From: Eucommia ulmoides
Lineage: Eukaryota; Streptophyta; Magnoliopsida; Garryales; Eucommiaceae
Direction: 5' to 3'
Assembly: GCA_016647705.1 (NCBI GenBank)
Contig: CM028329.1
Location: forward strand, 13,107,910 to 13,171,909
Length of the DNA: 64,000 nt
Shown: positions 9,301-52,046 of the stretch, piece after piece
Position numbering within the stretch: the first letter of the stretch is position 1
How the letters are laid out: every line of letters begins with the position of its first letter
Notes under the pieces: generated by a model
Database searches by the model: none
What the model saw: the letters and a program-made list of their open reading frames with translations, nothing else
Told to the model about the DNA's origin: nothing
Program-made: the position numbers and the translations under genes

Positions 9301-12300
9301 ACGGGACAGGTTTGGGAGCGGAAGGAGATGGTGTCGGGTCTGGGAGACTTGGTAGAGGAAGAGTGACATCCAGATCATCCCGAGAGGATAGGTCAGAAAA
9401 GTAAGAGGTGGACTCAAAGAAGGTGACATATGCACAAATGAAAGTGACATAAAGAAGGACTATAACACTGATAATCCTTTTGTGTGCGAGAATAGCCAAG
9501 GAAGACATATTTTATGGCACGATGATCTAACTTATCCTTGCCCAGAGTCAACTGGTGGACAAAACAGACACATCCAAAGATACAGGAAGGTAAAGCAAAC
9601 CAGGGTGATCGAGGAAAAAGAATAGAATGAAGGACTTTGCCATTCAGGGTAGAAGACGACATTCTATTGATCAAGAAGCAAGCTGCAAGAAATGTATCTG
9701 CCAAGAAGTGTCTGAGAACATTCATCTCGAACATTAGAGTTTGAGACACTTCTAGGAGATGTCAATTCTTACGTTTAGCGCCTCTATTTTGCTTCGGTGT
9801 GTGAGGACAAGAAGACAAATGCAGTATACCAGATTGTGACATGAATGAAGTAAAAGGCTGAGAAAAATATTCTCGAGCATTGTCACTACGAAGTATACGC
9901 ACAGGCACATTAAATTGAGTTTTAATTTCAGTACAGAAGACAGAGAAAATGGAGAACCATTCAGAACGATCTTTCATTAAGTAGAGCCATGTAACTCTAG
10001 AGAAATCATTGATAAACGTGACAAAATAACGAAAGCCAAATGTAGAGGCAATACGAGAAGGACCCCAAACGTCTGAATGAACTAAACTGAAAGGACTTGA
10101 TGCTCGAAACTGAGTTGGGGAAGTAAATGAAGTACGATGATGTTTTTCCAACTGACAAGACTCACAATCTAAGGAGGACAAATGACGTAAATTAGGAACA
10201 AATACTTTTAGATTGGCAAGACAGGGATGACCTAGGTGACAATAAATTTGGTGGGCAGATGCAACGGTAGGACAGGCAGAGGGCGGGATAACTGGTGTCT
10301 CGTCATGATTATTGAAGTGATAAAGGTCATTTTTCTCACGCCTTACGCCAATCATCTTCTATGTTTTCAAATCTTGGATAATGACAGAATCAGGAAAGAA
10401 GCAAACAAAACAATGAAGTTGTTGAGTAAGCTTACTAACTGATATCAAATTAAAAGCAAACGAGGGAATATACAACACAGAGGATAAAGAGAAAGATGGT
10501 GAAAGTTCCATAGTGCCAATACCACGAACAAGGACGGTGGAACCATTAGCAACAGTAACAGGGGACATTGAGGGAGATGACTGAATATGTGTAAATAGAT
10601 AAGAGGTACCTGATATGTGTTCGGTGGCAGCGGAGTCTATGATCCAAGGTATAGAAGTGGAAGGATGTAAAGAAAGACATGTAGTATGGTTACTTCATTG
10701 AGCTAGTGAAGTAATGGGGGTAAATGTCTGCTTGGACGCCTTAAACTGGAGGAACTGAACATACTCATCATCATAAATTGTCTTGGGAGTTGAAGAGTTG
10801 GATGCTGAAATGGGAACAACTTGATTATAAGTTGCCACATGAACAGACTTAGGAGAACGACTAACTTTGTACCAACAAGTATCTTGGGTATGATTTTCCT
10901 TGTCACAAAATGAGCAGCGATGATGTTGACTATGACAATGGCCACGTTGGCCACCTCGAAATTCATTACTACGACTTCCTCGGTTACCTCGTTTCCTTTG
11001 ATCAGTAACAACTTGTACAACTTTGGACTATTGTAAGTAATTGGTCTCATTTAATTTGAGGGTTGTTAACGGTTGGGGGGTAGCCGTCAACATTAGTCCC
11101 TGCTAATACAATAACAAATACAAAACAACTTGACAAGGGAAACAAACCAACAACACAAACAATTGTAGGGCTTAAATAAAGAACATTATAAGCAAAACAA
11201 TACTCACGAACATCCTGGACATTAGATCTGGTCCAGAATACTTTCGCAAATCTGGACAATCGAACGAACAGTACTCACGAACAATACTTTCTCAGATCTG
11301 GTCCAGAATACTCTCAAATCTGGACAATCTGAACAACACTCACAAACAAAATCCTTGTGTTACCATCGGATCTTGACAAAAGCAGCAGCGGCAAAGGCCC
11401 TGAGTCTGAAATCAGAGCAATCGATGGGCGGCAAACCTTGGCGAAGCGCCGGTGATGGTCAGCGAGGTTGGACAGAGGTTGTAGCGAATTAGATATGTGA
11501 AACGACAGCTGGGAGAAGCAAATCTTGTCAAGCGACGGCCAGAGAGGCACTGGGTATGGCCGGCGAACGTCGTGCTAGGGTTGCAGCGAGATGTGGGCTA
11601 GGGTTTTGGACTAGTTTTTTTTTTTTTTTTTTTTTTTAAACGAAGGGAAGGAGAGGAAAAAAATAAATAAATGATGGTTTGAATAGAACTACAGGATTAG
11701 TATCATATAACCTGTTCTCGATACTATGTTAAAGAGAGAAATGAATGAGAAGGTTTAATCATTGTGTTAGCCTCTCCATCTATTTATAATAATAATTAGG
11801 GAACGATACAAGAGACCCTAAACAATGTGGGAAACCCTAAACAGTACTAGTAAGACATAATTACCCTTTTTAACGGTAGTGATGAGAATAAACGAGCACC
11901 ATCAAAGGATCCACTGCATATGCCAGTCGGGTCTATTACTAGGGTAAGATCCAAAAGATTCAAAGAAACACTTAATAGATTAATTCAAGAGTTTTGGGCT
12001 GAGTCTACAATAGTGAAGCCCAAATTAGGTTCAAATGATGATCAAGGCCTAATCCATTTCATCAAGGCAAGCGAATGGGCTTAGGCGTGAACTTGAATAG
12101 GCCTAGGCATGAGACCCACCTCCTAGGTGTGAAAGCTAAAATTGGTTCCTCACCAAGAATTAGTGAGGCCTGAAAACCAATTTATGGTATCTTTACTAGG
12201 ATCAATCTAAAATCCAGATTTATAAACGAAGAAAAAAGAACAAAATATAGAATTTTTTATAGACAACCTTGACCCAACGTTTATGAATGAAACGTGAACC

Positions 12301-15123
12301 GAATGTATAAAGTACCAAACCTCGACCCAATGATTGTAATGGAATTACGAACCGAATGTATAGAGTTTGAATGCCACAGAAATTCTTGATAAGTTCAAGA
12401 ATTTTTTTTTGAAGAACTCAAGAACAAAAAAGAAAAGAAAAAAACTCTCTCAATCTGAAATGTTATTCAAAGTAATGTGTTTTTCCCATGGGATACAACT
12501 CTTTTAAATAGGCAACCAACAATAAAGGAAAACCTAGGTTAGTGGGTGGTCAAGCATACCCCACCATAGATAGGGGGTGACCTTTCGCACGTAGGGGTGG
12601 CCAAAGAGAACAAGAAGTCTTATCTTTAGCACAACCTACCCTAGATAGGGGTTGGCCTTTCACATCTAGGGGAAGGCCAATAAGAACAAGAAGTCCTAGA
12701 TGCCTTTCACACCTACTACAAGGCAAAAACCAGAAAATGAAAATACTAATTGGCATTCATACCTTACAAAATGACCTAAATTAAAATAAATAAACTAAAT
12801 TAATAAAATAAATAGGCTGAAAATTCGTGGGTCTCATGCCTAGGCCCATTCGAGTTCACGTCTAAATCTATTCACTTGCCTTGATGAGATTGATTAGATC
12901 TTGATCGTCATTTAGGCCTAATTTGGGCTTTACTATTGTAAGCTCAATCCAAATCTCTTGAATTAATCCATTAAATGTTTATTTGAATCTTTTGGTTCTT
13001 GTCCTGATAATAGACCCAACTGGCACATGTAGCGGATCCTTTGATGGTGCTCGTTGATTCTCATCATTCCCTCTCTCTTAAAAAATATTCATCCTCGAAT
13101 CTTCACCATAGTGTTGTTAATAGCTCGGCAATCAACATACATTCACCAAGTTCCATCCTTCTTAGGCACAAGTAGCACCGATACTGTGCACGGACTCATG
13201 CTCTCTCTAACTTGTCCTTTGGCCATCAACTCTTGAACTTGCTTTTGAAGTTCTGATGCGAACCTCTTTTTAGTTCTTTATTGAACTTAACTAATCTTAA
13301 TCAGAATTTCACGCAACAATCAAAACTCAATAATTCACTTCACTAAGAATAAGATTTAGGAAAGAACAAACAAAGTGAACAAGAAGGACAAAAATGATAA
13401 GTTATGGAATAAATCAAGATAAGGAAAATGTCAATTAAGTGTTGCTGATTTTTTTTCCCTTTTTTTTGTTTTTGTTTCAGTTTTATTTTTTTGATGAAGA
13501 TAAATGAGATTTGACCAGAACGAAGATGCACTTTGTTTTGATCAAAATCCGACCAGATTTGGCGATAAAATTCGGCCAAGTAGGAATTAAAGTAGAAAAG
13601 AATAAAAATAGATATCGAACAATAAAAATATGGAAAGAAGGAAAAAAATCTGATTTTAGAACCTTGCTCTAAACCAAATGATGCGAACCTCACAAAAAAT
13701 TAGTGAGACCCGAAAGCCAATTTATGGTGTCTTTGCTAAGGTCGATCTAAAATCGAGATTTATAAATGAAGAAAAAAGAACACAAAAATACAGTATTTTT
13801 TATAGACAACTTTGACCCAACATTTATGAATGAAACGCGAACCGAAGGTATAAAGTAACGAACCTTGACTCAATGATTATAATGGAATCACGAACTGAAG
13901 GTATAGAGTTTGAACGCCATAACAAATTCTTGATAAGTTCAAGAAAAGTTCCAAGAAGAATTCAAGAGAAAAACTCTATCAATCTGAAATGATATTCAAA
14001 GTAATGTGTTTTTTCATGGGATACAACTCTCTTAAATAGACAATCAACAATAAAGAAAAACCTAGGTTAGTGGGTGGTCAAGCACAACCTACCCTTGATA
14101 GGAGGTGGCCTTTTACGCCTAGGGGGTGGCCAAAGTCAACAAGAAATCTTAGCTTTAGCACAACCTACCCTAGAGAGGTGGCCTTTCATACCTAGGGGAA
14201 GGCCAAAGAGAACAAGGAGTCTTAGATGCCTTTCACACTTACTACAAGACAAAAACCAGAAAATGAAAATACTAATTGGCATTCATGCCTTACAAAATGA
14301 CCTAAATTAAAATAAATAAACTAAATTAATAAAATAAATAGGATGAAAATTCGTGAGTCTTATGCCTAGGTCCATTCGAGTTCACACCTAAGCCCATTCG
14401 TTTGCCTTGATAAGATGGATTAGGCTTTGATCGTCATTTGAGTTTAATTTGGGCTTCACTATTGTAGCAGGGTTTTAAATATCGGCTGTTACGTATTGGA
14501 AAATGAAGCCTCCGATACCGATACACGGCCGATTCCGGAGTCTAGGACTGAATCGCACCGTATCGGGCCGTTACGGGCCGATACGGGCTGTTAACGGCCG
14601 TTACAGACGTTACAGCCTGTAGAGGTCTAATTTTTGCCGACACCCATGTGAGGAGAATCTCTCAGCTTTCTTCAGAGAATCTACCATATAATTGAGCAGA
14701 GGAGAAGAAAAAAAATAGTAGAAGACAAACAAATACTTACCAATTAGCAGAAAATCAAAGAGCTCCTCGTCAAATTTTGAGATATCATATCAGTCGCGGC
14801 GTTGCCAAACCCTAACAGAAACAATTCGTTGCCGAACTAGCTCTCGCCGTCGCCGGCGATGTCACAGTCGCAGCTCCTCTCCGTCGCGTCGCAGCTCCTG
14901 GTCGTCGCGATGTCGCCTCACTCCGTTCGTCTCTCTCTCTCTCTGCATCTTATTTGGGCGTGAGTGAGTGTGTCGGTTCATTGAATTGGGTGGGTGTGTT
15001 TGGTTGATAATTAGGGGGGGTTAGGAAATAATAATGATTTATAAAATGATGTTTACAATTTAGTTCTCAAATTTTCTAACTTCTATTTTTATAGCCTTTT
15101 TTTTTGTCATTATTATTTATGAC

Positions 15124-30869: not shown

Positions 30870-31324
30870 TCAGACACCTTGATGATCACAGAGAAACCCT
30901 CATATACCTCATTTCCCTAGGTTCCAATTAGAAAAATGAAAATGTGTGGGATCACCTGGGGTGTATGTAGGATAGTAAGCTTGCAAAAGATCTCTGAAAA
31001 GTGGAGATAATTTGGAAGCGGACTCAAACGATTCCCTAAATGAACCTTCGATCATTTCCTTATTTTCATATTTTCACACCTCTTAGATGATTGTAATTAA
31101 ACAGAGCACTTTACGAGAGTTTAGAGAACTCCCTTTAATGGTTTTCATAATCAAATCCAATATATCAAGATGAACGTTCCGCTTTAAGTTTTTTGGGTCT
31201 CGAAAAATGGATCAAATCGCATGCCTTAGGGTATTTTCCTACAAGGTGTTATATTTATTAAGACACTTGCATCGTATTTTTTAGCTAAAAACATACACTT
31301 GTTGAGCTCAACACATGAAAAATG
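30870..31324. other. Spacer left of the Tat element
   Basis: No coding sequence recognised. It ends in AGATC, which forms the left target duplication of the gypsy element. Confidence 0.5.
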
Positions 31325-31329
31325 AGATC

Positions 31330-32060
31330 TGTTGGTGTCAAAAAATAGGCCAACCAGCAATATGGTTTGGTCACTGCTGACGTGGAGGATAGGAGCTGAT
31401 CTGGAGATTGACTTCTGTTGGGCTGAAATTTTCAATCCGTCTGGAGCTCGGTCCTGCGCATATCCGAGCTATTTTAGGCGCTATCCGACCTCACCTTTCA
31501 GGCTGGAACCTACACACAGGACTAGCCGGGGTGTGCCCAGCGTGTCTCATCCGACGTAAGAGTAAGAGCTCGGGGGAAGAAAAAAAAGTCGCTTAGATAA
31601 AACAAAGTCGTTACCTCAAGTTTTTTCACCTGCTGAATGGCTTAGCAAAGCCTTCTATTTATAGGTGATGACGTTATTAGCATCTCGAAAATTAAGGCCT
31701 TAAATTCGGTTATTCGTCCTAATCTGTCAGGCACGTGGATAGTGTGTGGAGGATTAGAGCCGTGGGCTTAGGCTTTTGTATGCTGATGGAGAAGACCATG
31801 GACCAAGCTTGTTAGGGAATGCAGGCCGGCCTGGGCACCGAGGTGCAAGTCGGGACGACTGCACTGACCTGCTCTTTAGTGGCGATATCAGAGGGGAACG
31901 TTGGAGATTAATGCTTGGCGATTGATCAAAGGGCTTCATTCTAACCAACCCGAGGATATATTTAAGCTATTGAGCAACCGGGCTCACTAGGTCATTTGAT
32001 GACGTGACACTTTTAATCTAGGAGGCAAACATGTGGCAGGGGTTGGAATTTTACCTCCCA
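31330..32060 (-). repeat. 3' LTR of the Tat element
   Basis: It starts TGTTGGTGTC on the + strand (ACCAACA on the - strand) and aligns with 41898-42616 throughout, for example GGCCAACCAGCA and TTGGCGATTGATCAAAGGGC. On the - strand a TATAAATAG box lies at 31655-31665, the likely LTR promoter core. The inner border near 32060-32070 is uncertain by about 10 bp. Confidence 0.85.
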
Positions 32061-32324
32061 AGCCTCAGCACAGAGAATGAACATAAGACGTTGAGGGTTT
32101 TGTTCACGGATTGCTGGAGAATGGAGATCCGGGCTCAAGGAGATTCTGCTTGAAATCCCAAAAATAGCTTGGCATTGAAAATTAGTTCGATCGATCTTTT
32201 CTTGGATTCCGCAAGAAGTTTGACTGGCACTTTGACCAGATGTGCGACACGTGGCCAGACAACATGCGGATCGAAGCTCTGGCCGCCATTTGATTATCAC
32301 GACGTTTCGACTTCTTGGTCAGCC

Positions 32325-32332
32325 TATAAATA
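32325..32332 (+). promoter_or_regulatory. TATA box for the antisense gene of the Tat element
   Basis: TATAAATA in GCCTATAAATAGGC lies on the + strand 97 bp before the ATG at 32429, with a pyrimidine-rich CTCTCTCTCTTCTC leader in between. This is the layout of a plant pol II core promoter, located inside the element and outside its LTR. Confidence 0.6.
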
Positions 32333-32428
32333 GGCACTTTATTTCTCTCATTTTTCTCCTTACCAGAGTATTCGTGAAAGCTCCATCCAACCTCAAAGCA
32401 CGCTACTCTCTCTCTTCTCTTTCCAAAC

Positions 32429-34627
32429 ATGTATGAGTCTTATTCGCTAGGGTACGACCTGTCTGAATCCAAGAGGACTAGGGATGAATCTCATCTTCAG
32501 CAGATCGAGCTTAGCTCATATGCTACAAAGGTCGATAAACCAGAGGTGGTCATCGAATGGAGGACCTCTTCTTCTTAGAGAGCCTGCAGGGCTGTTGGAG
32601 CGAGGACTTCCCAATCTCTCGGCGAAGTCGGCGTCTCTCGCCGTAGAAGGGTAAGAAGTGAGACAGGCTCTTCTGGGGCCCCGATATTGAGCTTGGAATG
32701 GATCCCACCATGGAGCTTGATATTGAGGGCCTGTCCACCACAGATGATGAAGCCCAGCCATCCACGTCGGGTCAGCCCAGCCTGTAAATGGCTTATATGC
32801 GAGGTTCCACAAGACGCCTTAGTTTGAGGGTAGAATCCGAGCTGTCAGAGAAGGATGTGAGGACCCTTCATTCTACGTAAGCCTTCTCCAGCACGGTGGA
32901 TACGCTAGTTCCTGGGGAAGAAGACCGTGTTTGTGCTCCTCCGAAGGGGTACATCACGGTGTATAAGAAGTAGATGCTTGGCGGCGTGCGCTTCCAAATT
33001 TATCCTTGGGTATGGGCTGTCTATTGGGACATTGGGCTGTGTCCGTCGCAGCGCGAGCCCAGCATCATGCGAATAGTGGTGGCCTTCCACGTTATTTGTA
33101 TGGCTAAGGGTATTGAACCAACCCTAGAACTGTTCTGGGCTGTCTTCCTGGCGAAGTCGATGCCCGGTGGAAGAAGTTGGTGCTACATAATAGCCAGGTA
33201 GATATTCCTCACTGGCTACGTTGACACCATGAAAGATTGAAAGCCCAACGTTTTCTTCCTTGGAGGGAAGAGTTGGGAGTTCAGCTCGGCAGAAGATGAA
33301 AATGAATACCCGGTCCAGATGCATTGGAGGATCGTGGGTAAGTCTAACAGTCCTGTGTCATTCTGACTTTTCTTCTCGGTCTCCTTTTTTTACTAGGTCT
33401 TTTCTCTTGTTTTCTCAACCCTAAAGAAGAACAAACCGAGCGTTGAGATCATTAAGCTGAGGGACCGGGTGATAAGCACATGGTTTAGCAATGTCAGGGC
33501 ATTGTTGACGTCGTGCTTGTTCGACATGTAGTTTTGGAGTGATCATTCCCTGCCACCACCAGTCTTGAAGAGAAACTCTAAAAACAGTAAGTGAATACAC
33601 CCTGGCTCGGTGATTTTATCATACTTGGCTTTTTGTAACTTTCTGATTGTGGTTGTCTCCTCTGTGTAGTTATGGATATTGAAGCAATAGTGAGGTTGGC
33701 TATGGAGCGGACTGAGGATGAGGCCGCGGAAGAGGCTTCTTATCAAGCTGGGCAGAAGGCTGCTAACTAAGGCTTACAGTAAGGCCCTTAGCAGGGCTTT
33801 CAACCCAGAAGGAAAAGCCAGGAGACGGAACACACGTCTTCCCAGTCAACACCCTAGGCAGCCCCCGTGAGGTCGGCACTGATGGGGATAGTCCAGCGCC
33901 AGCGGATGCGAAGAGCCCAGCCCTGGTTGAGAAGAGGGACAAGGGCAAGCGCAAGGTAAGCACAATGGAGGTGGACACCGGCCTTCAGCTCGGACGAAGT
34001 GTCTTGGACACACTAGCCACCCTCCCAACTTTTATCCACAAAATCATGCCTCCAGAGGATCAGGCCCAGTTCAGCGCGAAGTCCACCGATAGGCTTGCCT
34101 CCGACCTGTACAAGGATCTTCTATCAGTAAGTTTAAGTCCTGGTGAAACTTCTGAACGTATTTTCTGTTTTTCTATTGTTGCTAAACTCTTGTCTGTGCA
34201 GGGCCTCTACGCAGCAGTGGAGCTAGGGTTGCACCACTACCGGACTGCCGAGAAGTCCGGGAAGTGGGATGATGAGAAGACCTTGTTGATCAATAGCTGA
34301 ACCGTAATCGTGGAGAGGCAGCACGAGTTGGAAGGGACAGAGGAGAAAGATCGAGCAGAGATCGAGCATCTGAGGAAGAGGGTCGAGAACTTGCATAAGG
34401 ACAAGGAGACCATGGCCAGGGCGATCGAGGACTACAGGGCTTACACTGAACAAGCCATGGAGCAGTCCACCACAACTATCAGTGAGCTCAAAAGGATCGT
34501 TGCCGAGTAGGAGAAGATACTAGATGAGGCTAGGGCCGGCACTGTAGAAGCTTGGAAGAATAACCAAGACTACCGGGTCCTCAAGACCAAGATTGAGGCG
34601 GCTGTGATGAAGTTAGGCTTCAGATGA
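32429..34627 (+). pseudogene. Antisense spliced gene of the Tat element (PF04195-like, putative gypsy-type protein)
   Basis: It runs opposite to gag-pol, between integrase and the 3' LTR. It starts MYESYSLGYDLSESK. At 32974-33201 it encodes MLGGVRFQIYPWVWAVYWDI, then MRIVVAFHVICMAKG and PTLELFWAVF, which fits the putative gypsy-type transposon domain (PF04195, Transposase_28). The end (34310-34510) is an E/K/R-rich probable coiled coil, DRAEIEHLRKRVENLHKDKE. Plausible GT-AG introns are 33338-33396, 33597-33669 and 34137-34201. The last one joins DLYKDLLS to GLYAAVELGLHHY in frame. Several stops (for example 32576) show decay. Function in Tat elements is unknown. Confidence 0.75.
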
Positions 34628-35990
34628 GCAGTCAACTCTGTCTAGCGCCAGTTCTCTGAGGTGGATATAAGAAGATAAGAATGAATCTTGATCCCTCACA
34701 GGTCCGGGGTGCCTAGGTCGGCAGCACCGAGCCCAGCGTTGGCGTCGAAGGTTAGGTCAGACCCCTTGTTCCTGTTGGTGGCAAAACTCAGACTGGGCCA
34801 ACTACATAATCAGCTCTTCCTTAGCCCGGCACCAAATCAAAACATGCAATTTTTTTCTTCTGTTTCGTTTTCTTTTCTTTCACTTCAGTCCAGAACAGGC
34901 TTTATAATGATTGCACATTTGCACGAATAGTCGCTAACAATCATTGCAACTTAATAAAAATAATCGACCTCATTTGCCTTAACTTTTAAAACTGTAAATC
35001 AGCTTGGATGTTGTTGAACATAATAACCAAGATGACTTAATCAGCCCGGTTATCTAAAGGAACAGTCACACCGGACTTTTTGCAATGCGCTTTGGCCCTT
35101 TTTGTCAGAGCAAAACGGCGGCACCAACATGAGACATCAGGTCAGCGAGACGCTGACAATCAGCTCGGCCACTTCTAAACACTTGGCAACAGTCGCCTAA
35201 GCGTGAAATTTTTTAAAATCGGGCATATTTTACACCGGCTTTGATTCTAGTGTCGAGTTGTTTTTACTTGTAAATTTTTTGGGCTTAGGACTACACCGAT
35301 CATCATCACAACACTAAGAGGTCGTACCTCAATCAAGCAGAGCACCGGAAAGAATTCAACCTTCCACTGGACGCCCAACCAAGTAGACGTCATCTCACTC
35401 AAGTGCAGGAGATCAAATCGGTCTGCCAACCTCTACCATTCCTTGACTGTCCTGCCCCCCAGCCAACTGGATGAGCTCGGATTAACCATGATCGTGTGGT
35501 CGGCTTACTAGAGGGGGTCCGATTTTGGTTGGGTCTTCTCGGTCCATGAGTTTGACACCTCGGTAGAGTCACGTAGCTGGTCATTGGTGAGTTCTCCTTA
35601 ATCAGGCTCGTTCTCGAGCCCTTTCGGGTTATCTCAATTCCCCTTACAGGAGCATCATCCCTTAGGTCGTTTGAGCTCTGCTCGGCTGTGAGGGAGTTAG
35701 TTAGTCCCCATGCTAACACTATTGACCTTCTTAGCGGGCCGGTTATCACCCTTAACGATTGCACCGGGATGCCATTTAGAGATTCGGCTAGAAGGCTGCT
35801 TATCTCCACCTTCGCTCGGAGATTGGTTGGAGGGTAGCTCATATCTATCCTTTAAGGCCGGAAGGTTGCTCGTCTCTACCATTACACATAGATTTTTGGA
35901 TATTGGGGAATACATTGAACCGAATACCTTTTTCATTGATTGAAAATTTCATTACAAGTTTCAGACATCCGAATTTCTACAAATCTAGGG
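34628..35990. other. Tat element 3' non-coding region
   Basis: Between the end of the antisense gene and the integrase end. It contains scattered AGCTCGG/CAGCCCGG-type words but no recognised domain. Open frames on both strands at 35399-35943 are not conserved in any family I know and are likely shadows. Confidence 0.5.
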
Positions 35991-35999
35991 AGATGGCTC

Positions 36000-37200
36000 C
36001 TCTCTTGGATAATAGCACTTTAGGTGCTCGATGTTCCAGGGGTGTTTCAGGGGTACTCCTTATTTGGTCTGCAAGTTGTATGTGCCAGGCCGGGCTATTC
36101 GCGTAACTTGGTAAGGTTCTTCCCAGGTGAGAGAAAGCTTACCATCATTCTGGTCCTTAGTGGCCAGAGTGACCTTTTTGACGACGAGGTCTCTGACGTC
36201 AAAAGAATGAGGTCGGACCCTCCTGTTGTAGTATCGGGCTGCTCTCTACTGATAGGCAGCCTGGTGCACTCGGGCTCTTTCCCTTCTCTCTTCTAGCAGA
36301 TCCAGGCTCAAGGCTAAACTTGTCTCATTTTCAGCTCAGTTAAAAGGAGCTACAATCCAGGGTGAAGGTGGACCGATTTCCACTGGGATGACAGCCTCGG
36401 ACCCAAAGGCCATGGCGAAGGGCGTCTTACCTGTGGGGGGTTCGAGTTGTCTTATGGTAGGCCCATAGCACGGGATGGAGGTTTTCCACTCACAACTCCT
36501 TGAACTTGTCTAACCTTATCTTCAGATTCTGTAGAATGGTCCAGTTGATGACCTTAACCTAGCTATTAGCTTGGGGGTAGCCGGGGGAAGACAAATGTGT
36601 GTTGATGCCCAGCCCGGAATAGAATCGGCAAACAGGTCATTGTCGAGCTGTTTTCTGTTATTGGAGACGATGGCTTTGGGGAGCCGAATCGACAAATTAT
36701 GCTCTTTCATACAAAGCCTCGAATTTTCTCCTTGGTGATCTTGGCAAGGGGCTTGGCTTCCACCCACTTGGTGAAATAGTCGATGGCAACGACGAGGAAC
36801 TTTCTCTGGTCGGTTCTTTGAGGGAACGGACCGAGGAGGTCGATGTTCCACTAGGCAAAGGGCCACACGCTGGTCATCGGCACCAGCTCGGTTGGAGGTG
36901 CGTGAGGGTGCACGGCAAACCTCTGGCACTTATCTCATTTCTTCACGAATTCTTCTGCGTCTTTAAGCATCTTTGGCCAGTCGCATCTTTGGGCTAACAA
37001 CATGCCCCTGATGGTTGCCACAAAAGCCTTTGTAGACCTTTTTCATTATGTATTCGGCATTCTTAGATCAGAGGCATTTGGAGAAGTGGCCAGAGAAGGA
37101 TTTGCGATACAAAATTCCATTAAGAATGACGAACCTTACAGCTCGATATCGCACATTCTGGGCCTCAGCCCGATCTACGGGCAGCATTCCATCGGCGAGG
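36000..37200 (-). pseudogene. Gypsy integrase of the Tat element, catalytic Asp altered
   Basis: On the - strand the core shows WNIDLLGPFPQ, then FTKWVEAKPLA. The second catalytic motif, usually VSDNG, reads VSNNRKQLDND, so Asp became Asn. The stretch continues with NLHPVLWAYHKTTRTPTGKT and TPFAMAFGSEAVIPVEI, then a VTLATKDQNDGKLSLTWEEP GPY-like region. Stops in several places make it inactive. Confidence 0.85.
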
Positions 37201-37284
37201 TAGTCCCTGATCGGATCCATCCAGGTCAGATCAAAGCTAAGGGTGTATATAATCTCGACCTCATCCAAGGTGGTAGTGCTCGGC

Positions 37285-37860
37285 TCAGTACTCTACGGGT
37301 ACTGTGTGCTTGAGCATGTATTCAACCGCCGAGGCCAGGTTAGCCCAAGTATCGGCATGCTTGTTTTCTTCTTGGGATATTTGTTTTACTTGAACCTTTT
37401 CGAAATTATCTATCAAAGCCTTCACTCTCTCTAGGTAGGATATTATGCTTGGGTATTTGGCCTGGTATTCACCGTTCACTTGATTGACCACGAGCTAAAA
37501 GTCGCTTAAGACCTGGAGAGTCTTCACATTAAATTCTTGGGCCAATCTCAGCCCGGCCAGGAGGACTTCGTATTCAGCTTCATTGTTCGTAGATCATAAC
37601 CCGAGCCTGAGGGCGTATTCAACCTCTTATTTGTCTAGAGCAACAAGAACCATCCCAGTACCGAAATTATTTTGATTGGAGGAACCATCGGTGAAGAGCT
37701 GCCAAGAGTCAGGCCCCAGGTCCGTATCCATAGCTTGGGCTTTATCGGCCTCTCTCATTGATGGATAGGTATTCTCGGCTGCTTCTAAGTCAGTGTTGGT
37801 CTCTTCATCTGAGAAAGTCAACTCGGCTATGAAGTCAACCATGACATATCCCTTTATCGC
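37285..37860 (-). pseudogene. RNase H of the Tat element
   Basis: The - strand reads WQLFTDGSSNQNNFGTGMVL with first catalytic Asp, then STNNEAEYEVLLAGLRLAQE with Glu, then LQVLSDF followed by a stop, VVNQVNGEYQAKYPSI, and EENKHADTWANLASA. This archaeal-type (second) RNase H is a hallmark of the Tat lineage. Two internal stops are present. Confidence 0.85.
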
Positions 37861-39110
37861 CTTGTTGGGGGTGATATTTGATGTGAAATTGGCCCATTTT
37901 GAGGCTTTACTTCATTAATCTCCCGAAAACGTCAGGAGAGTGGAGAATCTGCCTCAAAGGCTGGTCGATTAGCAGGATGATGGTATGAACCTGAAAGTAT
38001 TGCCTTAGCTTTCTCGAAGCAACCAACAGGGCGTAGGCCAACCTTTCAAATTTTGAGTATCTCGTCTCGACATTGGTGAGCACTCTGCTGGAGCAGTATA
38101 CCGGGCTCTAGGCACCACCCTCTTCCCTGACCAGGGGGTGCTGACAACCGTAGTGGAGGCCATGATGTAGAATAACAAGTTTTTCCCTCTCTTTAGCGTG
38201 CTGAGCAGAAAAGCTGAGGAGATGTATTTCTTTAGTTCCTAAAACGTATTACCGCACTCCTCAGTCCATTCAAAGGCCTTGTTCCCTCGGAGGATCTTGA
38301 AAAATGGAAGGCACTTCTCGGAGGATTGGGAAATGAACCGATTCAGGGCGGCCAACCAGCCTGTCAGTATTTGAACTTCTTTCTTATTACGAGGGGACGC
38401 CATACCGGGCATCGCACTGATCTGGCCAGGGTTTGCGTCGATGTCGCGCTGTGAGACCATGAAGCCAAGAAACTTTCCAGTAGACACCCCAAAGATGTAC
38501 TTGTTCGGATTCAACTTCATACGATGAACTCGGAGTTTGTCAAAACAGGCCTGGAGGTGCCTAAGGTAATCTTAAGCCCTACTGCTCTTGACAAACATGT
38601 CATCGATGTATACCTCCATTGTTTCCCTGATCTCCTCCTTGAATATTTTGTTCACGAGTCCCTGGTAGGTCCCCCCCGGCGTTGCGTAGGCCGAAGGGCA
38701 TGACCTTATAGCAGTAGGTGCTTCTGTCCGTGATGAACGAGGTATTATTCTTGTTAGACGGATACATTAGGATCTAATTATAACTGGCATAAGCATCCAG
38801 AAAGCTCAAGTGCTCGTACCCGGCCATGGATTCGATCACTATGTCGATTCTAGGGAGGGGGAAGAAGTCTTTCGGGCAAGCTTTGTTGAGATCTTTGAAA
38901 TCTACGCATAGATGCTATTTATTACTAGTCTTTGGAGCCAGGACCACGTTAGCCAGCCAGACCGAGAACTTGACCTCCTCCACAATATTCGACCTGATGA
39001 GCTTGTCCATCTCCTCTTCAATGATCTTTTGTCGATCTGGATGAAACTTCATTTTCTTTTGGCGAATAGACATGTGGTGCACGTCGACATGGAGTCGGTG
39101 CATAGCCATA
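37861..39110 (-). pseudogene. Reverse transcriptase (and first RNase H) of the Tat element
   Basis: The - strand open frame 39109-38915 reads MKFHPDRQKIIEEEMDKLI and then VVLAPKTSNKWR-like sequence. After stops come NKACPKDFFPLPRID and then the catalytic VYIDDM near 38590-38605. The frame 38520-38239 holds MKLNPNKYIFGVSTGKFLGF and WTEEC, the RT thumb and start of the first RNase H. Several frameshifts, for example near 38670-38690, disable it. Confidence 0.88.
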
Positions 39111-39539
39111 CTGGGATCAATCCTGGGAAGATCGTTATAAGACTAGAAGAAGACATCGTAATTCCTCTTCAACAGTCCAGTGAGCTCGGTACGCTGATCC
39201 GGGCTGAGTTTGGCTCTGATTCTCACCGTTCTTTATTCGATGGTTGGGTGAATGGGGACCTCAAGGAGGTCTTCGGGGGACCAGACTCTTCATTTTGTGG
39301 ATCATCAATTGGGATGAGCTCGGCCTCGCCGGCCAGGGCCATGAGCTCAAAAAATGACTGGCGAGGTTTCCTAGGCTCAGACCTGCACAGTAATTGCTAT
39401 CTTTTCTCCATTGCCCTCCTCGTACAAGCTCGAGCAACTTTCTGGTCTTTGCAGACCTCTCCCACCCTGGAGTTGGTGAGAACTTCATCATTTGGTGATA
39501 AGGCGAACTGACGGCCTTTAGGGAGACTACAGTAAGCGG

Positions 39540-39800
39540 GCCCATGATGGCATTGTAGGTTGACGGTTTGTCCACGATGAGAAATTTTAACCACATGGTG
39601 GCCATTTTGGGCTGGATCCCACGATGACGGGCAAAGAAACCCATCCTACTGAGCTCACAACGTCTCCTCCAAAATCGACGAGATGAGACTTTACGGGCTG
39701 AACAACGCTGGAGTCCACGTTCATTCTGTCGAAGGCCCATTTAAAGATGATATTGGCAGAGCTTCCACCATCGACCAAGATTCTTCCTGTCTTGAAATGA
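39540..39800 (-). pseudogene. Aspartic protease of the Tat element
   Basis: The - strand open frame 39778-39587 begins MVDGGSSANIIFKWAF. VDGGSSA is the Tat-type variant of the retropepsin DSG/DTG active site. The following part is shifted into the frame 39740-39261 (TYNAIMGP). Confidence 0.82.
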
Positions 39801-40099
39801 TTGATCAGGGTGGAGATAACTAGGGCATCATCGTGGGGGATATGTACCCCTATGAGGTCGGCCTCGCTGAAGAAGACGACGTTATGCGAGGCGACATCGA
39901 CCGTGCTGACCTTGTATATGTCCTACTTGGCCTTCCTCTTACCCTTCTGCTCATATCTCTTTCGGGAGGAAGGCGTTTTGCCCCCGAGACCCAGTCCACC
40001 GTGGATAATATTTATCTTATCGTCCACTCTCAGGTCGACATCATCACCAAGGTTGTCGTCATTGGGTAGAGATAGACTGTTGTTCCTCATACGTCACTA

Positions 40100-41200
40100 A
40101 CCTCGGTGCTCGTCCCGGCGGTTGCCCCCCCGTACTGGGGCTCCTTGTTTGTTTAGCGTATATAATTACCGAGGTAACCCCTCTTTATGAGGGCCTCTAT
40201 TTTCTCCTTTAGATGGAAGTATTCCTTGGTGGTGTAGCCACGATCATAATGAAATTCACAGTATTTAGCGACCGACCTGCCCATAGGCTTCCCCCTCAGG
40301 GGTGGGGCAGGTGGGAAGATCCCCTTCTTGGAGTTTTTCGCAAAAATGGTGGCGATTAAAGCTGTCAAGGGGGTAAACCTGTGCTAGTGAGGCCCTATGG
40401 GTAGAAGAGGTCTCTTGTCCCCGGACAGAGGTCTCAATCGTCTTTCAACTTGGAGTCATCTTGAGGCTTGAGACCGACTCAGGCCTTCATCGCCCCGACC
40501 TTTCTTTTTCAAGAATCCTTTTCTTTTTTTCTTCACCATGTCGAGGAGGTTGGCTTTATAGTAGCTAGTACCAAGATCCAAAGCATCACGCAGGCACAAG
40601 GCTGGTCGTGAACTCAAGTCATAGGATAATCTTTTGTACCTCAACCCGTCGATGAAGGCGTTTAGGGCCACCATATCTGAGACCCTTTCACAGGCGAGTG
40701 ACTCCTTCCAGAATCTATCAACATAATCACCCAAGTTTTTGTTGACCTCTTGCCTGAGAGAAAGGATATGGGTCACAGTTTTTTTCCTGCGCCTCGATCG
40801 ACTGAACCGGGTGAAGAACTGTTGTTCGAGCTGGAGGAAGGTCAAAATCGAGGCTGGAGTCAGGTCATTGAACTAGGTCCGAGCTGGACCGATCAAGGTG
40901 AGCGAGAAGAACTTATACTTTACCGTTGTGGAGGCAGTGTGCATATCCACGTGGGACGCAAAAATAGAAAGGTGATCCACAGGATTAGTAGTCTCATCAT
41001 ACTGGGCTACCGGGGGATTGGGGAATTTATAAGAAATAGGTTTATTTACGATCTCATCGATAAAAAGAGATTTTACCACAGAAGAAAGCCCGACGGCACC
41101 TCCAGTACCCTGTATCTGGTTGAGCATGGCCTCCATTTCGGCCATACAATGTTCCATTGCTACTTTTCCTCTAGCTGGTGCTACAATCTGACTGACAACA
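40100..41200 (-). pseudogene. Gag of the Tat element
   Basis: The frame 41157-40873 reads YKFPNPPVAQYDETTNPVDH and HVDMHTASTTVKYKFF. The frame 40845-40456 reads MTFLQLEQQFFTRFS and LRQEVNKNLGDYVDRFWKE, the retrotrans_gag domain. The frame 40368-40153 holds YCEFHYDRGYTTKEYFHLKE, the degenerate zinc-knuckle region usual in Tat Gag. Frame changes separate the three parts. Confidence 0.87.
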
Positions 41201-41897
41201 GCTTGGGGTTCACACCTTCGAGCTGGTGGGGGAGAATGGGAATCTATTTCCCGAGTCTGACGGGAACGACGTTCAAACTGGGCTTAGCAATTAGGCGCCC
41301 AAGCTGGTGACGACCCCAGTCTCTCTTCAAATCGGCTTATGCTAGATGGCTAAGATAAGAACCTCGACGCAGCAGGGGATCGAAATCCCTTTCTCTTACT
41401 GCGCAGTTGTGTGAACGAGGTCAGGCCTAGGGCATATGTTTGTGAGAGTAAATTACTCAATTATCGGACTCCTAGGTCGATCATCTCCCCCTGCATTCTG
41501 GTGGTCCAGTCCCTCTTGCGCTGGGGCCAGAGGTAGACGGGAGAGAAGGACTTGGAAATAATTCTGTAATTTACGAAGTTGGCCTTCCAAATTATCGAGT
41601 CTGGAAGCGTCAACGGCCCCAGAGGTTTGGCCTACGAAGATGCCTAAGGCCGGGACAGCTAGGCTGGCCTATCCCATGATAAGGATATTCTCTACTTCAG
41701 CAGGGGCACGGGCAGTTGCCCTGGTATCTGGACTCGAAGCTCTGGACATGTCTTGAGTGGGGTTGCTATTTATTGTGGCATTTTGATTCCTCAATCGCAA
41801 AGAGTGACTAGACCTTGTGTTCATCAAACCTTAGCGAAGCATGCAGCTGATGACTCGGAGAAGGCTTTTTGTGTGCTTCCCACAAACGACGCCAAAC
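41201..41897 (-). other. 5' leader and primer-binding site of the Tat element
   Basis: Between the 5' LTR (right side) and Gag. Next to the LTR the - strand reads TTTGGCGTCGTTTGTGGG, close to the TGGCGCC-type primer site used by many plant gypsy elements. The rest may encode the N-terminus of Gag in broken frames. Confidence 0.55.
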
Positions 41898-42621
41898 TAT
41901 TGGTGTCGAAAAATAGGCCAACCAGCAGTATGGTCCGGTCACTGCTGACGTAGAGAGCAGGGCCTGATCTGGAGGTTGACTTCTGCTGGGCTAGAATCTT
42001 CAATCTGTCTTGAGCTCGATCTTGTGCATAGGCGAGCTACTTTAGGCGTTGCCCGACCTTACCTTCCGAGTTGGAACCTGCACACAGGACTAGTCGGGGT
42101 ATGCCCGACATGTCCCCTCCGGCATAAGAGTAAGAGCTCAGGGGAAGGAAAAAAGGTCGCTTAGATAAAACATAGTTGTTAACTCAAGTTTTTTCAACTG
42201 CTGAATAGCTTGGCAAAGCCTTCTATTTATAAGCGAGGACGTTATTAGCATCCTGTAAATTAATGCCTTAAACTCGGTTATTTGTCCTAATCAGTCAAGC
42301 GCATGGAAAGCGTGTGGAAGATTAAAACCATGGGCCTAGGCCTTTGTATGCTGATGGAAAAGCCCATGGGCTAAGCCTGTTAGAGAATGCAGGCCATCCT
42401 GGGCACCAAGGTGTAGGTCAAGATGACTGCACTGACCTACTCTTTAGTGGCGATATCAGAGAGGAACGCTGGAGATTAATGCTTGGCGATTGATCAAAGG
42501 GCTTCATTCTAACTAACCCGAGGATACATCCGGGCTGTTAAGCGACCGGGTTCACCAGGTCGTTTGATGACGTGGTGCTTTTAATCTAAGAGGCAAAGAG
42601 GGTGGAATTTTACCCATATCA
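41898..42621 (-). repeat. 5' LTR of the Tat element
   Basis: Partner of 31330-32060, with perhaps 10-15 percent differences by eye. A TATAAATAG-like box lies at 42223-42233 on the - strand. It is followed by the AGATC duplication at 42622-42626. Confidence 0.85.
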
Positions 42622-42843
42622 AGATCCAAAATAAGATTGTAATTACAATTGTTTTAAAAAAAAATGTTTGTGTTGAATTCAATAAGGTGCGTTCTGTTCA
42701 ATTTAATTATTGAAAGGAATATATGAAAATAAATTAAATGAGCATGCTATAATGAACTATGATTTTTCTCAAAATTTCGAATCAAAATAAAATATTGTTT
42801 AGAATATGATAGAAAGATAAGGTGAATTTAATTATATAATTAT

Positions 42844-44138
42844 GAGTTTATACCATTTACCTCTCTTGTCATTTTATTCAAAACCAGAAATCTCCCTTAT
42901 TATTTTACAAATACCAATCAACCGACTTATCATTTTTTATCAAAGATCACTTACCTCCTTTATAAATAAAAAATTAATAATTTTTTTATTGTAATGACCA
43001 TTTTACCCTTAGCCATTTAAAAATGACTAAATAATTAAAAATTAAAATACATAAATGACCCTTTAAATTTGTTTTATATATATTTTCATCTTTTATTTTT
43101 TTACACGAACATCTGTATTTTAAAAAATATTATTTTTTTAACCCTTATTTTTAACAAATTAAAAAAACAAGAAGAAGACCATATGTCTTATTCTCTCTCT
43201 CTCTCAATGATCAATCCATGTATTTGTTCTTCTCCTGTATACTCGTTTTCGGATCTATAAGTGAAATACATACAACACAAATAAAGAGAACAAGGAAGCT
43301 AGAAAACAAAAATTTAAGTGAAATCCATTCTTGTCTATCTGCACTTCCTTCTGTACAAACTATAGAGAGAACAAGGAAGCTAGAATACAAAACTCACAAA
43401 AACCTACCAACAAACCCAAAACGGAAGACAACCAAGAACGCATTGCTAGCCAAGAAGATGATTTTACAAACTGTTGCATGATAATAGCCCTTTTCACAGC
43501 CTGGTTAGACGGTATGCCTTTCTATTGCTGTTGACCTGCAGCAAACCCCCCCCTCTCTCTCTCTCCCTCCCCCCATGGATTTGTGCTCACGGCACAAATC
43601 CATGGAGGATATGTGCCTGCAACACAGATCCTTGGAGCATCTGTGCTGCGCGCATAGATCTTCCATCGATCCATGCCGTGAGAGGGCACAGATCCACCAC
43701 GGATCTATACTGCGAACACAAATCCATGGGGATCTGTGTTAGCCCATATATTCTATATTCGCCAATTTATGTTCCAATCCATTTTTTTTTGTTGCCAGCA
43801 GGGATGGTGGTAACAAGGGAGCAAGTAGAAAATGGAGGAGACATGGAAGTAAAGAGGAAATGGAGGAGGGATGAGCTAAGGAAGATAATGAATTTGGAAA
43901 AAATATATTATTACCCCTAAATTTTGGATTAATTTTAAATGGTGAAAAGTAAAATTAAAAATAAAGAGGGTGTTAGTGAATTTTTTTTAAAAAGTAAAAG
44001 AATAAAAATATATTTTGCGGGCATTTATGTTTTTTTACAAAAAAAAAATGGTCAAAAAAGATGACTGGTATTTTGCGAAAGATAAGAGAGATTTTTGGTT
44101 TTGAACAAAATAACACCGGAGGTAAATTGTATATACCC
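42844..44138. mobile_element. Mutator-like non-autonomous element (1295 bp) with long TIRs
   Basis: The left end reads GAGTTTATACCATTTACC and the right end on the other strand GGGTATATACAATTTACC. The inverted repeats run for about 100 bp (TTCAAAACCAGAAATCTC against TTCAAAACCAAAAATCTC). Flanks share ATATAATTAT at 42834-42843 and 44139-44148, consistent with the 9 bp duplication of Mutator plus one ambiguous base. The core holds a set of small palindromes (43573-43740) and an unassigned + strand frame (43474-43920). No MURA transposase was seen. Confidence 0.8.
43573..43745. repeat. Cluster of ATCCATGG palindromes
   Basis: A perfect inverted repeat (CCATGGATTTGTGC, loop, GCACAAATCCATGG) at 43573-43605 is followed by variants at about 43606-43650, 43655-43715 and 43716-43742, built on the same CACAGATCCATGG word. 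Each can form a hairpin. Confidence 0.75.

Positions 44139-46736: not shown

Positions 46737-46779
<43 letters not shown>
46737..46779. repeat. (TA)n microsatellite
   Basis: About 20 TA units followed by a GTATATAGATG break. Confidence 0.95.
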
Positions 46780-46786
<7 letters not shown>

Positions 46787-47145
46787 GATGTCGATTCTGT
46801 GGTGACAGGAAAAAAGTGTTTTTCCTTGTGGTATGAGACATTTATATATTATGGTGATTTTTATTAGATATGTAATGTTTGTATACTTATACTTGATCCA
46901 TTCAAATGTGGTATTACTCAGAATGTATTATTATTTTAAAAATATTTTTATTAAAAAGACAGTACACTCGCAGATACAGTAGCTAAGAGTCGGTCTCCTA
47001 CTGGCATTAGGTAGAGTCCGGCAATGCGATAGTGAGAGAGTATTTTAGGAAGTGTTGGTTGAGGCAAACTGATGAGAGGTTCATGATTATTTTATCTTTA
47101 TTGTATTTATAATTTTGTAGGGACGAGTATGTCCCCAATTAGAGA

Positions 47146-47146
<1 letters not shown>

Positions 47147-47238
<92 letters not shown>
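47147..47238. repeat. Compound (TA)n(GA)n microsatellite
   Basis: About 36 TA units, then about 10 GA units. The exact length may be unstable or affected by assembly. Confidence 0.95.

Positions 47239-48956: not shown

Positions 48957-48994
<38 letters not shown>
48957..48994. repeat. (TA)n microsatellite
   Basis: About 19 TA units. The repeated IYIYIY frame on the - strand comes from it. Confidence 0.95.
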
Positions 48995-48998
<4 letters not shown>

Positions 48999-49152
48999 GT
49001 AAAGAACTTTTTATTTCTGATGTGATTACCAAATTTAATAAATATTTGAATATAAATTGTCGTGAAAAATCTTGTACATCGTGCTTCGCCCTCACTCTAT
49101 CCAAATATATTGGAAGGGTGACTAACGTGCATTGCATGTCAACTTACATCTA

Positions 49153-50096: not shown

Positions 50097-50691
50097 GCGG
50101 ATAACCCGTCTCTGAAGGCATAAACTAATAAAGATAACTTTAATTTAAAACAAGAAATTATCTTTAATATTTAGGCAATGAAATACAACAATCAATAGTA
50201 ATATTCAACATATAGTATTGTACAAAAAAAAATATTTTGAAAATATAATTGATCTTTTTCAATACTTCAAATTATCTGTTTGAAGGAAAATGTGTGATTC
50301 CTTTAAAATAGGTTTCATTTTCAACCATGTTGAATTCATGAAATACTATATAATTAGAAATGTTGATTTTCAAATAAACAAAAACTAACAAAAATCTATA
50401 TGACAATTCAAGAAAACAGATAGCAAACAAAGTAATTTTTGACAAGGTAATTTACATTCGATTTTCGCCCATTTGCCAGAGAACAAAATAAGACCGATAT
50501 CAAATTTGGAACTAATATTCACTTATCACCCACTACAAAATAAAAACTAATCATTTTTATTTAAACTACAAATATATTATAAGTAAAAGAATCAAGTAAT
50601 TGAATTTACAGAAAGCTGAAAGGATAAACATCATATAGAGCTTATTGTTGACACTAATTCCATATATATATATATAGATAGATAGATAGAA

Positions 50692-50757
<66 letters not shown>

Positions 50758-52046
50758 CATATATGAATGACACGTATAATAATAATAATAATAATAATAG
50801 TAGTAGTAGTAGTAGTATGGATTTGAAAATTAGCCTTTTTATATACACATATATATCATATGTGTTTTGGTGGCTGTGTGTGGCTTGTGGCGAGCTATAT
50901 ATATACACATATATATTATATGTGTTTTGGTAGAGATTTCGGCTCGGATTTCAAGTAGAATTTCTAACTCTTTTAATATATGTATTTAATCTCTCCATGT
51001 ATCATGTGGTTTATGTTATTACTGTTATAAATGTTATTTTCATGAAATATTTATGATCACGTATTATGTGAAAATTATATGTGAAATATGTCTATGTGTT
51101 TATTTGTTGTATTAATTAAATATACGTATTAGAGGGATTGAAATTCTACTAAGTATTGACTCACAATCCCACAATTTTTATTTTAGAGTTGGTGAAAAAT
51201 GGAGTTGCACCAGAAATTATAATTTTATTTGAATTTCTATTTAATTTGTAATAGTTGTATTTATTATTTACTAATATAGAATTGACTTGGTAAATTGATA
51301 ATTATCGCCGTCACATTGTAAAATTTCTTAGATTTATTCTTTTTGGGAGAAATGCGTGGCTGCCCTGGAAAACCGGGTCATTACAATAATACAACATAAT
51401 AACCAGTTAGAAAAATTGGTAATTTGTGTGTTTGATATTTAATTGTATAAATTTTTATCACTACTCAATTCACCTTCCTCTTGGATAGATTTGTGGGCCA
51501 ACAACTACGTTTACCCGTTACCCTAAACTTATACACTATTATGAATGCTAAGGCCTAAAACATGCACCTAAATCCACTTTCCACGGGAAAATAGTAGATA
51601 ACAAAAAGATATACAGAAAATGTAAGAAGAAGAAGAAAAAACACATATACCCTGTTATCTCACCGTTGTCTAAAGGTCAGATTCTGATTCAACTATTGGC
51701 CCTCGCATTTGATAGCTCCTTTTCAAAACATAGGTGATCTAAATGGTAAAACAAAACCCAACATTCACATCAAATAACAATTATGCACCAAATTGGTTGC
51801 TAAATCGAGGACAAATGAGCATATATCTAAGAAATAAAGCATCAGGAAATAAATTCTACGTCAATATCTCCTCAGGTAGTTGATACTTATGCGGATATAA
51901 AGAAAGACAATGAAATATCCTATAGAGGCAAGTCAATTATTCTAAATCTAGAAAAAAAAATATTAACTCCATGCTCAATTGCAAACAATGGATCAGTGCG
52001 AAAACTTAAACATACACTATGTTAGTCCAAAAATAATATGAATCGA
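50097..52046. other. AT-rich spacer with microsatellites
   Basis: No gene. Microsatellites: (GATA) near 50675-50690, (AT) 50694-50756, (AAT) 50777-50798, (AGT) 50799-50816. A 30 bp word TATATACACATATATAT followed by ATATGTGTTTTGGT occurs twice (50839 and 50896). The segment 50096-50255 matches 26629-26780. A sequence ending GGAAAACCGGGTCATTACA at about 51386 looks like an LTR end, but no start was found. Confidence 0.5.

Follow-up and report, generated by a model that had tools for sequence, protein, structure and literature searches.

The 64,000-nucleotide stretch of Eucommia ulmoides DNA analyzed here (the window) contains an 11.3 kb element that is probably, judging by its sequence, a dead Ty3/gypsy retrotransposon of the Retand type (Tat clade), with a putative accessory gene for a TRP28 domain (PF04195, Transposase_28) lying antisense to it; this gene is predicted to have four exons and a TATA promoter of its own, placed in the internal region close to the 3′ LTR. 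Comparison with other copies in the genome supports reading it as an antisense gene that contains introns and has a TATA box outside the LTR. The original prediction, made from the letters of the window alone, is partly confirmed: it recognized a real gene in the right general layout, erred at one acceptor, two donors and the gene's end, and did not mention that the copy is dead. Its interpretation of the gene is partly supported.

The element occupies approximately positions 31329–42616 and is bounded by two LTRs identified by self-comparison, as predicted, with gag-pol on the minus strand. The limits of the 5′ LTR (41897–42616, minus strand) and the 3′ LTR (31329–32056, minus strand) come from self-comparison and an alignment of both LTRs, the right end of the latter being taken from the alignment; no clear target-site duplication was seen. 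The pair is 85% identical over 701 aligned bases, with a K2P divergence of 0.175 (92 transitions and 16 transversions at 718 sites). With 1.3e-8 and 7e-9 substitutions per site per year, this divergence corresponds to an age of 6.7–12.5 million years, a figure probably inflated by deamination. The differences between the LTRs show a strong transition bias (92 vs. 16), which fits decay of methylated cytosines.

Pfam profiles recognized gag and both RNase H domains on separate stop-free pieces of the minus strand: a gag piece at 40459–40872 (PF03732, 34.9 bits), a first RNase H piece at 37910–38107 (PF17917, 33.9 bits) and, after it in pol, a second RNase H-like piece at 37288–37494 (PF13456, RVT_3, 30.7 bits), the two RNase H matches both exceeding their cut-offs. 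The reverse transcriptase is broken, one piece matching PF00078 at 15.1 bits, under the cut-off, and no integrase profile matched the pol pieces searched. The gene had been placed between integrase and 3′ LTR; its position relative to the pol pieces agrees with this, while the integrase itself is without a Pfam match on those pieces. The Tat clade is defined by an additional RNase H (aRH) besides that of pol, according to PMC6317226, and the window element carries two, reading 38107–37910 and 37494–37288, in line with its original description as a Tat-type element. In PMC6317226 and PMC11963269, the Tat clade is marked by a second RNase H, and in its Retand lineage an antisense TRP28 gene lies between pol and the 3′ LTR. 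In Retand elements the extra RNase H is expected between the RNase H of pol and the integrase; of this order, the window element shows the second RNase H piece following the first. The TRP28 frame in the window lies in just that interval, on the strand opposite gag and the RNase H domains. A minus-strand ORF of 147 codons (35399–35842) is located in the spacer separating pol from the antisense gene. No tandem repeats were reported in 31000–43000. Elsewhere in the window, two directly repeated copies of about 800 bases (12148–12940 and 13688–14466) share 86% identity, and four self-complementary simple-sequence tracts (46737–46789, 47149–47220, 48957–49001 and 50662–50764) match one another on both strands.

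All features of the antisense gene are on the plus strand. The TATA box TATAAATA at 32325–32332 is situated about 270 bases into the internal region from the 3′ LTR, outside the LTR, and is identical in 25 of 30 copies; the copies support the non-LTR TATA box that had been proposed. A pyrimidine-rich leader follows and precedes an ATG at 32429, both present as originally described. Exon 1 (32429–33337) runs from this start codon, an ATG in 18 of the 30 copies, to the first donor, and includes the TRP28 domain at 32974–33201 (profile match 32986–33156). Predicted intron 1 (33338–33418, 81 nt) has a GT donor in 25 of 27 copies; at its acceptor, 33417–33418, AG is found in 14 of 27 and AA in 10 of 27. 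Exon 2 (33419–33586) is followed by intron 2 (33587–33669, 83 nt; GT in 21/26 copies, AG in 21/26), exon 3 (33670–34126), intron 3 (34127–34201, 75 nt; GT in 15/20, AG in 14/20) and the coiled-coil-like exon 4 (34202–34669), whose true end is farther downstream than 34669. A possible polyadenylation signal, AATAAA, at 34953–34958 is found in 8 of the 18 rows shown, the window included. Within exon 3, the stretch 33770–33970 is poorly conserved, many copies having a match that ends at about 33730–33890 and restarts at about 33970, with an intervening segment of differing length.

While the existence of three GT-AG introns is backed by copy comparison, several of the boundaries first assigned to them were misplaced. 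An acceptor for intron 1 at 33395–33396 was rejected: AG occurs there in 1 of 27 copies, the window alone, and the family acceptor is 22 nt farther on. The donors at 33597 and 34137 were each off by 10 bases, the true ones being 33587 and 34127. The gene does not end at 34627 as proposed; the stop there is a product of decay, and in 12 of 18 sister rows both that codon and the preceding one are free of stops.

The antisense gene in the window copy is dead. Its frame segments contain 12 in-frame stops in 621 codons. The other two plus-strand frames contain 30 and 41, but a minus-strand frame likewise has 12, and the stops of the window copy therefore leave the strand undecided. Exon 1 is broken by stops and a frame change, the frame also changes inside exon 3, and the acceptor of intron 1 has been lost (AA at 33417–33418). 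The PF04195-like domain of the original prediction matches its profile at 17.4 bits (E = 0.0053) on a stop-free piece and at 16.3 bits with X put at the stops, both below the 26.2-bit family cut-off, although a sister copy (L043, which occupies the place of L025) scores 43.5 bits; the PF04195 check proposed along with the original prediction is passed by this sister, the window copy itself remaining sub-threshold.

Sister copies were sought in the whole genome (947 Mb, 391 contigs). With the antisense gene as query, a DNA search returned 448 candidates; 40 were scored, and the best 30, window included, were aligned. Directly upstream of the gene, all 30 have an LTR match in the same orientation, which is no unbiased count because the copies were picked by their similarity to the gene. 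A separate search for PF04195 scored 150 of 2445 candidates, and the matches listed exceed the cut-off. A set of 48 PF04195 loci in this genome (L001–L008 and L039–L078) forms 29 clusters at 80% identity, indicating that the domain is present in many diverged lineages of this genome.

To judge from these copies, the antisense frame is under purifying selection. For exons 1–2 (28 rows, L031 and L033 excluded), dN/dS (Nei-Gojobori with Jukes-Cantor) has a median of 0.34 and is below 1 in 378 of 378 pairs; exon 4 together with the end of exon 3 (19 of the 30 rows) gives a median of 0.31, with 171 of 171 pairs below 1. For both values the pairs are not independent, the copies being related and decayed, and the segments 32429–32509, 33672–33770, 33771–33899 and 34202–34309 are omitted. 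Exon 2 by itself has a median of 0.18 (330 pairs). Constraint on the frame among sister elements, proposed as a check along with the original prediction, is found. Alternative frames give 0.79–1.05; the exception, with 0.41 and 0.43, is the minus-strand frame whose wobble position coincides with that of the plus frame. Pseudo-frames in the introns give 0.61–0.86. The stop-codon fraction of the wobble-sharing frame exceeds that of the plus frame in both comparisons (0.041 vs. 0.029; 0.054 vs. 0.035); another minus-strand frame over exons 3–4 has a fraction of 0.030, slightly below the plus frame. Many exon stretches show codon periodicity in 60-base windows, with a ratio of the fastest position to the others of up to 2.78, and several exon windows show little; periodicity is low in the windows of introns 2 and 3 (1.29 and 1.13), with some in that of intron 1 (1.46). 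Relative to the window copy, and with gap runs longer than 30 bases excluded, indels number 4.0 per kb in exons vs. 24.1 per kb in introns. Lengths in multiples of three are rare in both (24 of 173 exon and 11 of 109 intron indels), so the kept frame is backed by indel density and not by indel lengths. The antisense gene appears to be a long-standing component of the element that has been kept by selection.

GT-AG boundaries, T-rich sequence and in-phase joining of open frames, the features of spliceosomal introns, are all present at the three predicted gaps. The T fraction is 0.43–0.48 in the introns vs. 0.19–0.31 in the exon immediately upstream, and each gap connects the phases of open frames, exon 1 ending in phase 1 and joining the frame of exon 2 without a frameshift. 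Both splice dinucleotides are intact in 12 of 27 copies for intron 1, 16 of 26 for intron 2 and 10 of 20 for intron 3; 31 of the 36 departures are a single G to A, the change expected where methylated copies decay. Splice sites are conserved no better than the intron interior in close copies, so the conservation of these dinucleotides alone proves nothing, and the case for the predicted introns is made by phase linkage, composition, indel density and distant relatives. Among 18 distant relatives, both flanks could be aligned in 10 for intron 1 (GT in 9/10, AG in 9/10, one miss, L060, being a one-base alignment offset) and in 10 for intron 2 (GT in 8/10, AG in 10/10); two of the 18 were testable for intron 3 (GT in two, AG in one). 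Exon flanks in these relatives are 60–63% identical, compared with 42–48% for intron interiors (identity times coverage). Intron 3, at 75 nt, is open in the window copy, and read-through is also possible there.

Two further searches bear on the same question. GTAAG occurs 100–199 nt past the TRP28 domain in 9 of 25 clusters outside the window's family vs. 37 of 550 cluster-bins elsewhere, an enrichment that is only supportive because the control word GAATG, in one bin within the coding domain, attains 9 of 25 as well. Across the 30 aligned copies, the only places where GTAAG is present in at least 35% of rows are donors 1 and 2 (23/28 and 21/28), donor 3 falling short; several of seven control words also have conserved places in this alignment. 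In a search for intronless copies, the spliced exon 2/exon 3 pattern had no exact and one one-mismatch place in the genome, and the unspliced donor pattern had 5 exact and 31 one-mismatch places; two-mismatch places were mostly noise (spliced, 237 vs. 143 for a backward control; unspliced, 274 vs. 464). This search covered one junction, and an old, decayed retrocopy would escape it. The lack of an intronless copy at this junction fits introns that cannot be removed from the gag-pol strand, and it would also fit gaps that are not introns.

For the proposed coiled-coil C-terminus, the profile search gave only weak matches to coiled-coil families, none of them over its cut-off. Both structure models had low confidence and gave no significant match; the first returned many MarR winged-helix rows (best E only 0.53), a pattern that did not recur with the deeper alignment. 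A loose nuclear localization pattern is found in 11 of 20 rows. Neither the structure-model searches nor the localization-motif scan supports DNA binding or a nuclear location, and with models of such low confidence DNA binding is neither supported nor excluded. PMC11963269 gives DNA binding as predicted for TRP28. The likeliest role, weakly supported, would be that of a nuclear protein, expressed without recourse to the LTR promoter, which binds DNA and has a regulatory or protective effect on the element.

Other readings of the antisense region have to be weighed against a split protein-coding gene. It is unlikely that the region consists of two or more separate unspliced ORFs, with the gaps as spacers and their GT-AG motifs arising by chance. 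The openness of intron 3 in the window copy would suit such an arrangement, as would the 104 antisense ORFs reported for representative elements of 63 clusters by PMC11963269, whose main text does not contain the word intron. However, the gaps are 75–83 nt long, T-rich, bear GTAAG-like donors and AG acceptors and link the exon phases, their indels are six times those of the exons, and their boundaries are kept in distant relatives. We also consider it improbable that the transcript acts mainly as RNA, pairing with the 3′ region to form dsRNA and bring about silencing or self-limitation, with an incidental frame. The gene is entirely antisense to the element's RNA, and this possibility has been raised for antisense transcripts of such elements (PMC7264820), but a dN/dS of about 0.3 on the amino-acid sequence is unexpected for a pure RNA function. 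An RNA antisense to the element's 3′ end is a possible product of the predicted gene, and RNA and protein roles could coexist.

The original prediction had seen a passenger. Host-gene capture by LTR elements is documented in literature cited by PMC7264820, yet a recently captured gene, useless to the element and carried by chance, is very improbable here: the frame is under apparent selection, an LTR adjoins the gene in all 30 copies, related antisense TRP28 genes populate the 29 clusters of the same genome, and such ORFs are characteristic of Retand, being reported in all but two of 63 clusters (97%) in PMC11963269.

Under the preferred reading, that of a split, protein-coding antisense gene, RNA polymerase II would transcribe from about 32325 toward pol, splicing would remove all three introns, and the mRNA would encode a protein with a TRP28 domain near its N-terminus and a coiled-coil tail. 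Introns are normally lost once a gene passes through RNA. In the life cycle of a retroelement, the transposition intermediate is the gag-pol strand, which would hold these introns only as reverse complements and hence in a form that cannot be removed; they may survive retrotransposition because antisense splice sites are unreadable in the packaged RNA.

A broader proposal, on which we are evenly divided, is that the Retand antisense TRP28 gene was ancestrally one split gene whose introns outlasted many rounds of retrotransposition by facing away from the packaged RNA, that the surveyed TRP28 and SMC-like ORFs are its exons, and that low detection of Transposase_28 is partly an artefact of searching for uninterrupted ORFs. 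PMC6317226 reports Transposase_28 in 23% of Retand elements, with extra ORFs predicted at no fewer than 250 uninterrupted codons; PMC11963269 took ORFs of at least 600 bp first and then shorter ones. A split gene could explain part of the gap between 23% and 97% detection, and a multi-exon structure could explain why contiguous-ORF surveys recover the gene in pieces. If the proposal is true, a selfish element keeps an intron-bearing gene by carrying it backwards, so that a split gene is inherited via an RNA stage; this would supply a reason for the antisense orientation, and annotation would shift from several short antisense ORFs to a single protein that begins with TRP28 and ends in a coiled coil. 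A 2020 review called for examination of possible antisense and spliced transcripts (PMC7264820), and the predicted junctions 33337/33419, 33586/33670 and 34126/34202 are exact places to seek them.

The literature already describes antisense TRP28 ORFs, as well as a related antisense gene that has a promoter of its own; what is new is the conserved split structure. Among the titles listed for the open literature searched, there was no report of spliced antisense genes or of a conserved multi-exon structure in such elements, the original Grande gene23 and Steinbauerova extra-ORF papers being outside that search, so that an earlier description is possible. The closest relatives are the antisense TRP28 ORFs of Retand (PMC11963269) and ORF4 of Silene Retand (PMC7264820), which share the place between pol and 3′ LTR, the orientation and the PF04195 domain. 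Some published Retand elements also have extra coiled-coil or SMC-like ORFs (PMC11963269). Published Retand ORFs are described as uninterrupted, whereas the window family appears to have one gene with a conserved TATA box and three introns.

Maize Grande gene23 (Gomez-Orte 2013, as cited in PMC7264820 and PMC11963269) is likewise antisense between pol and the 3′ LTR; it is reported to be transcribed from its own promoter and to have a nuclear product, a location that is conjectural for the window gene. Ogre, another Tat-clade element with an intron, differs in that its spliced intron is on the sense strand, between GAG-PROT and RT (PMC6317226), and those of the window element are on the antisense strand. 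Deltaretroviruses provide a further parallel, proposed in PMC11963269, in antisense genes such as HTLV-1 HBZ, which codes for a protein and is found close to the 3′ LTR on the opposite strand; the HTLV antisense promoter is within the 3′ LTR (PMC7264820), in contrast to the predicted promoter about 270 bases into the internal region here. Finally, in intron-bearing retrotransposition reporters (PMC12786077), gene and retroelement are on opposite strands and an intron is carried, as in the window element. The reporter intron lies on the sense strand of the element and is removed, whereas the predicted introns of the window lie on the strand of the antisense gene and would persist.
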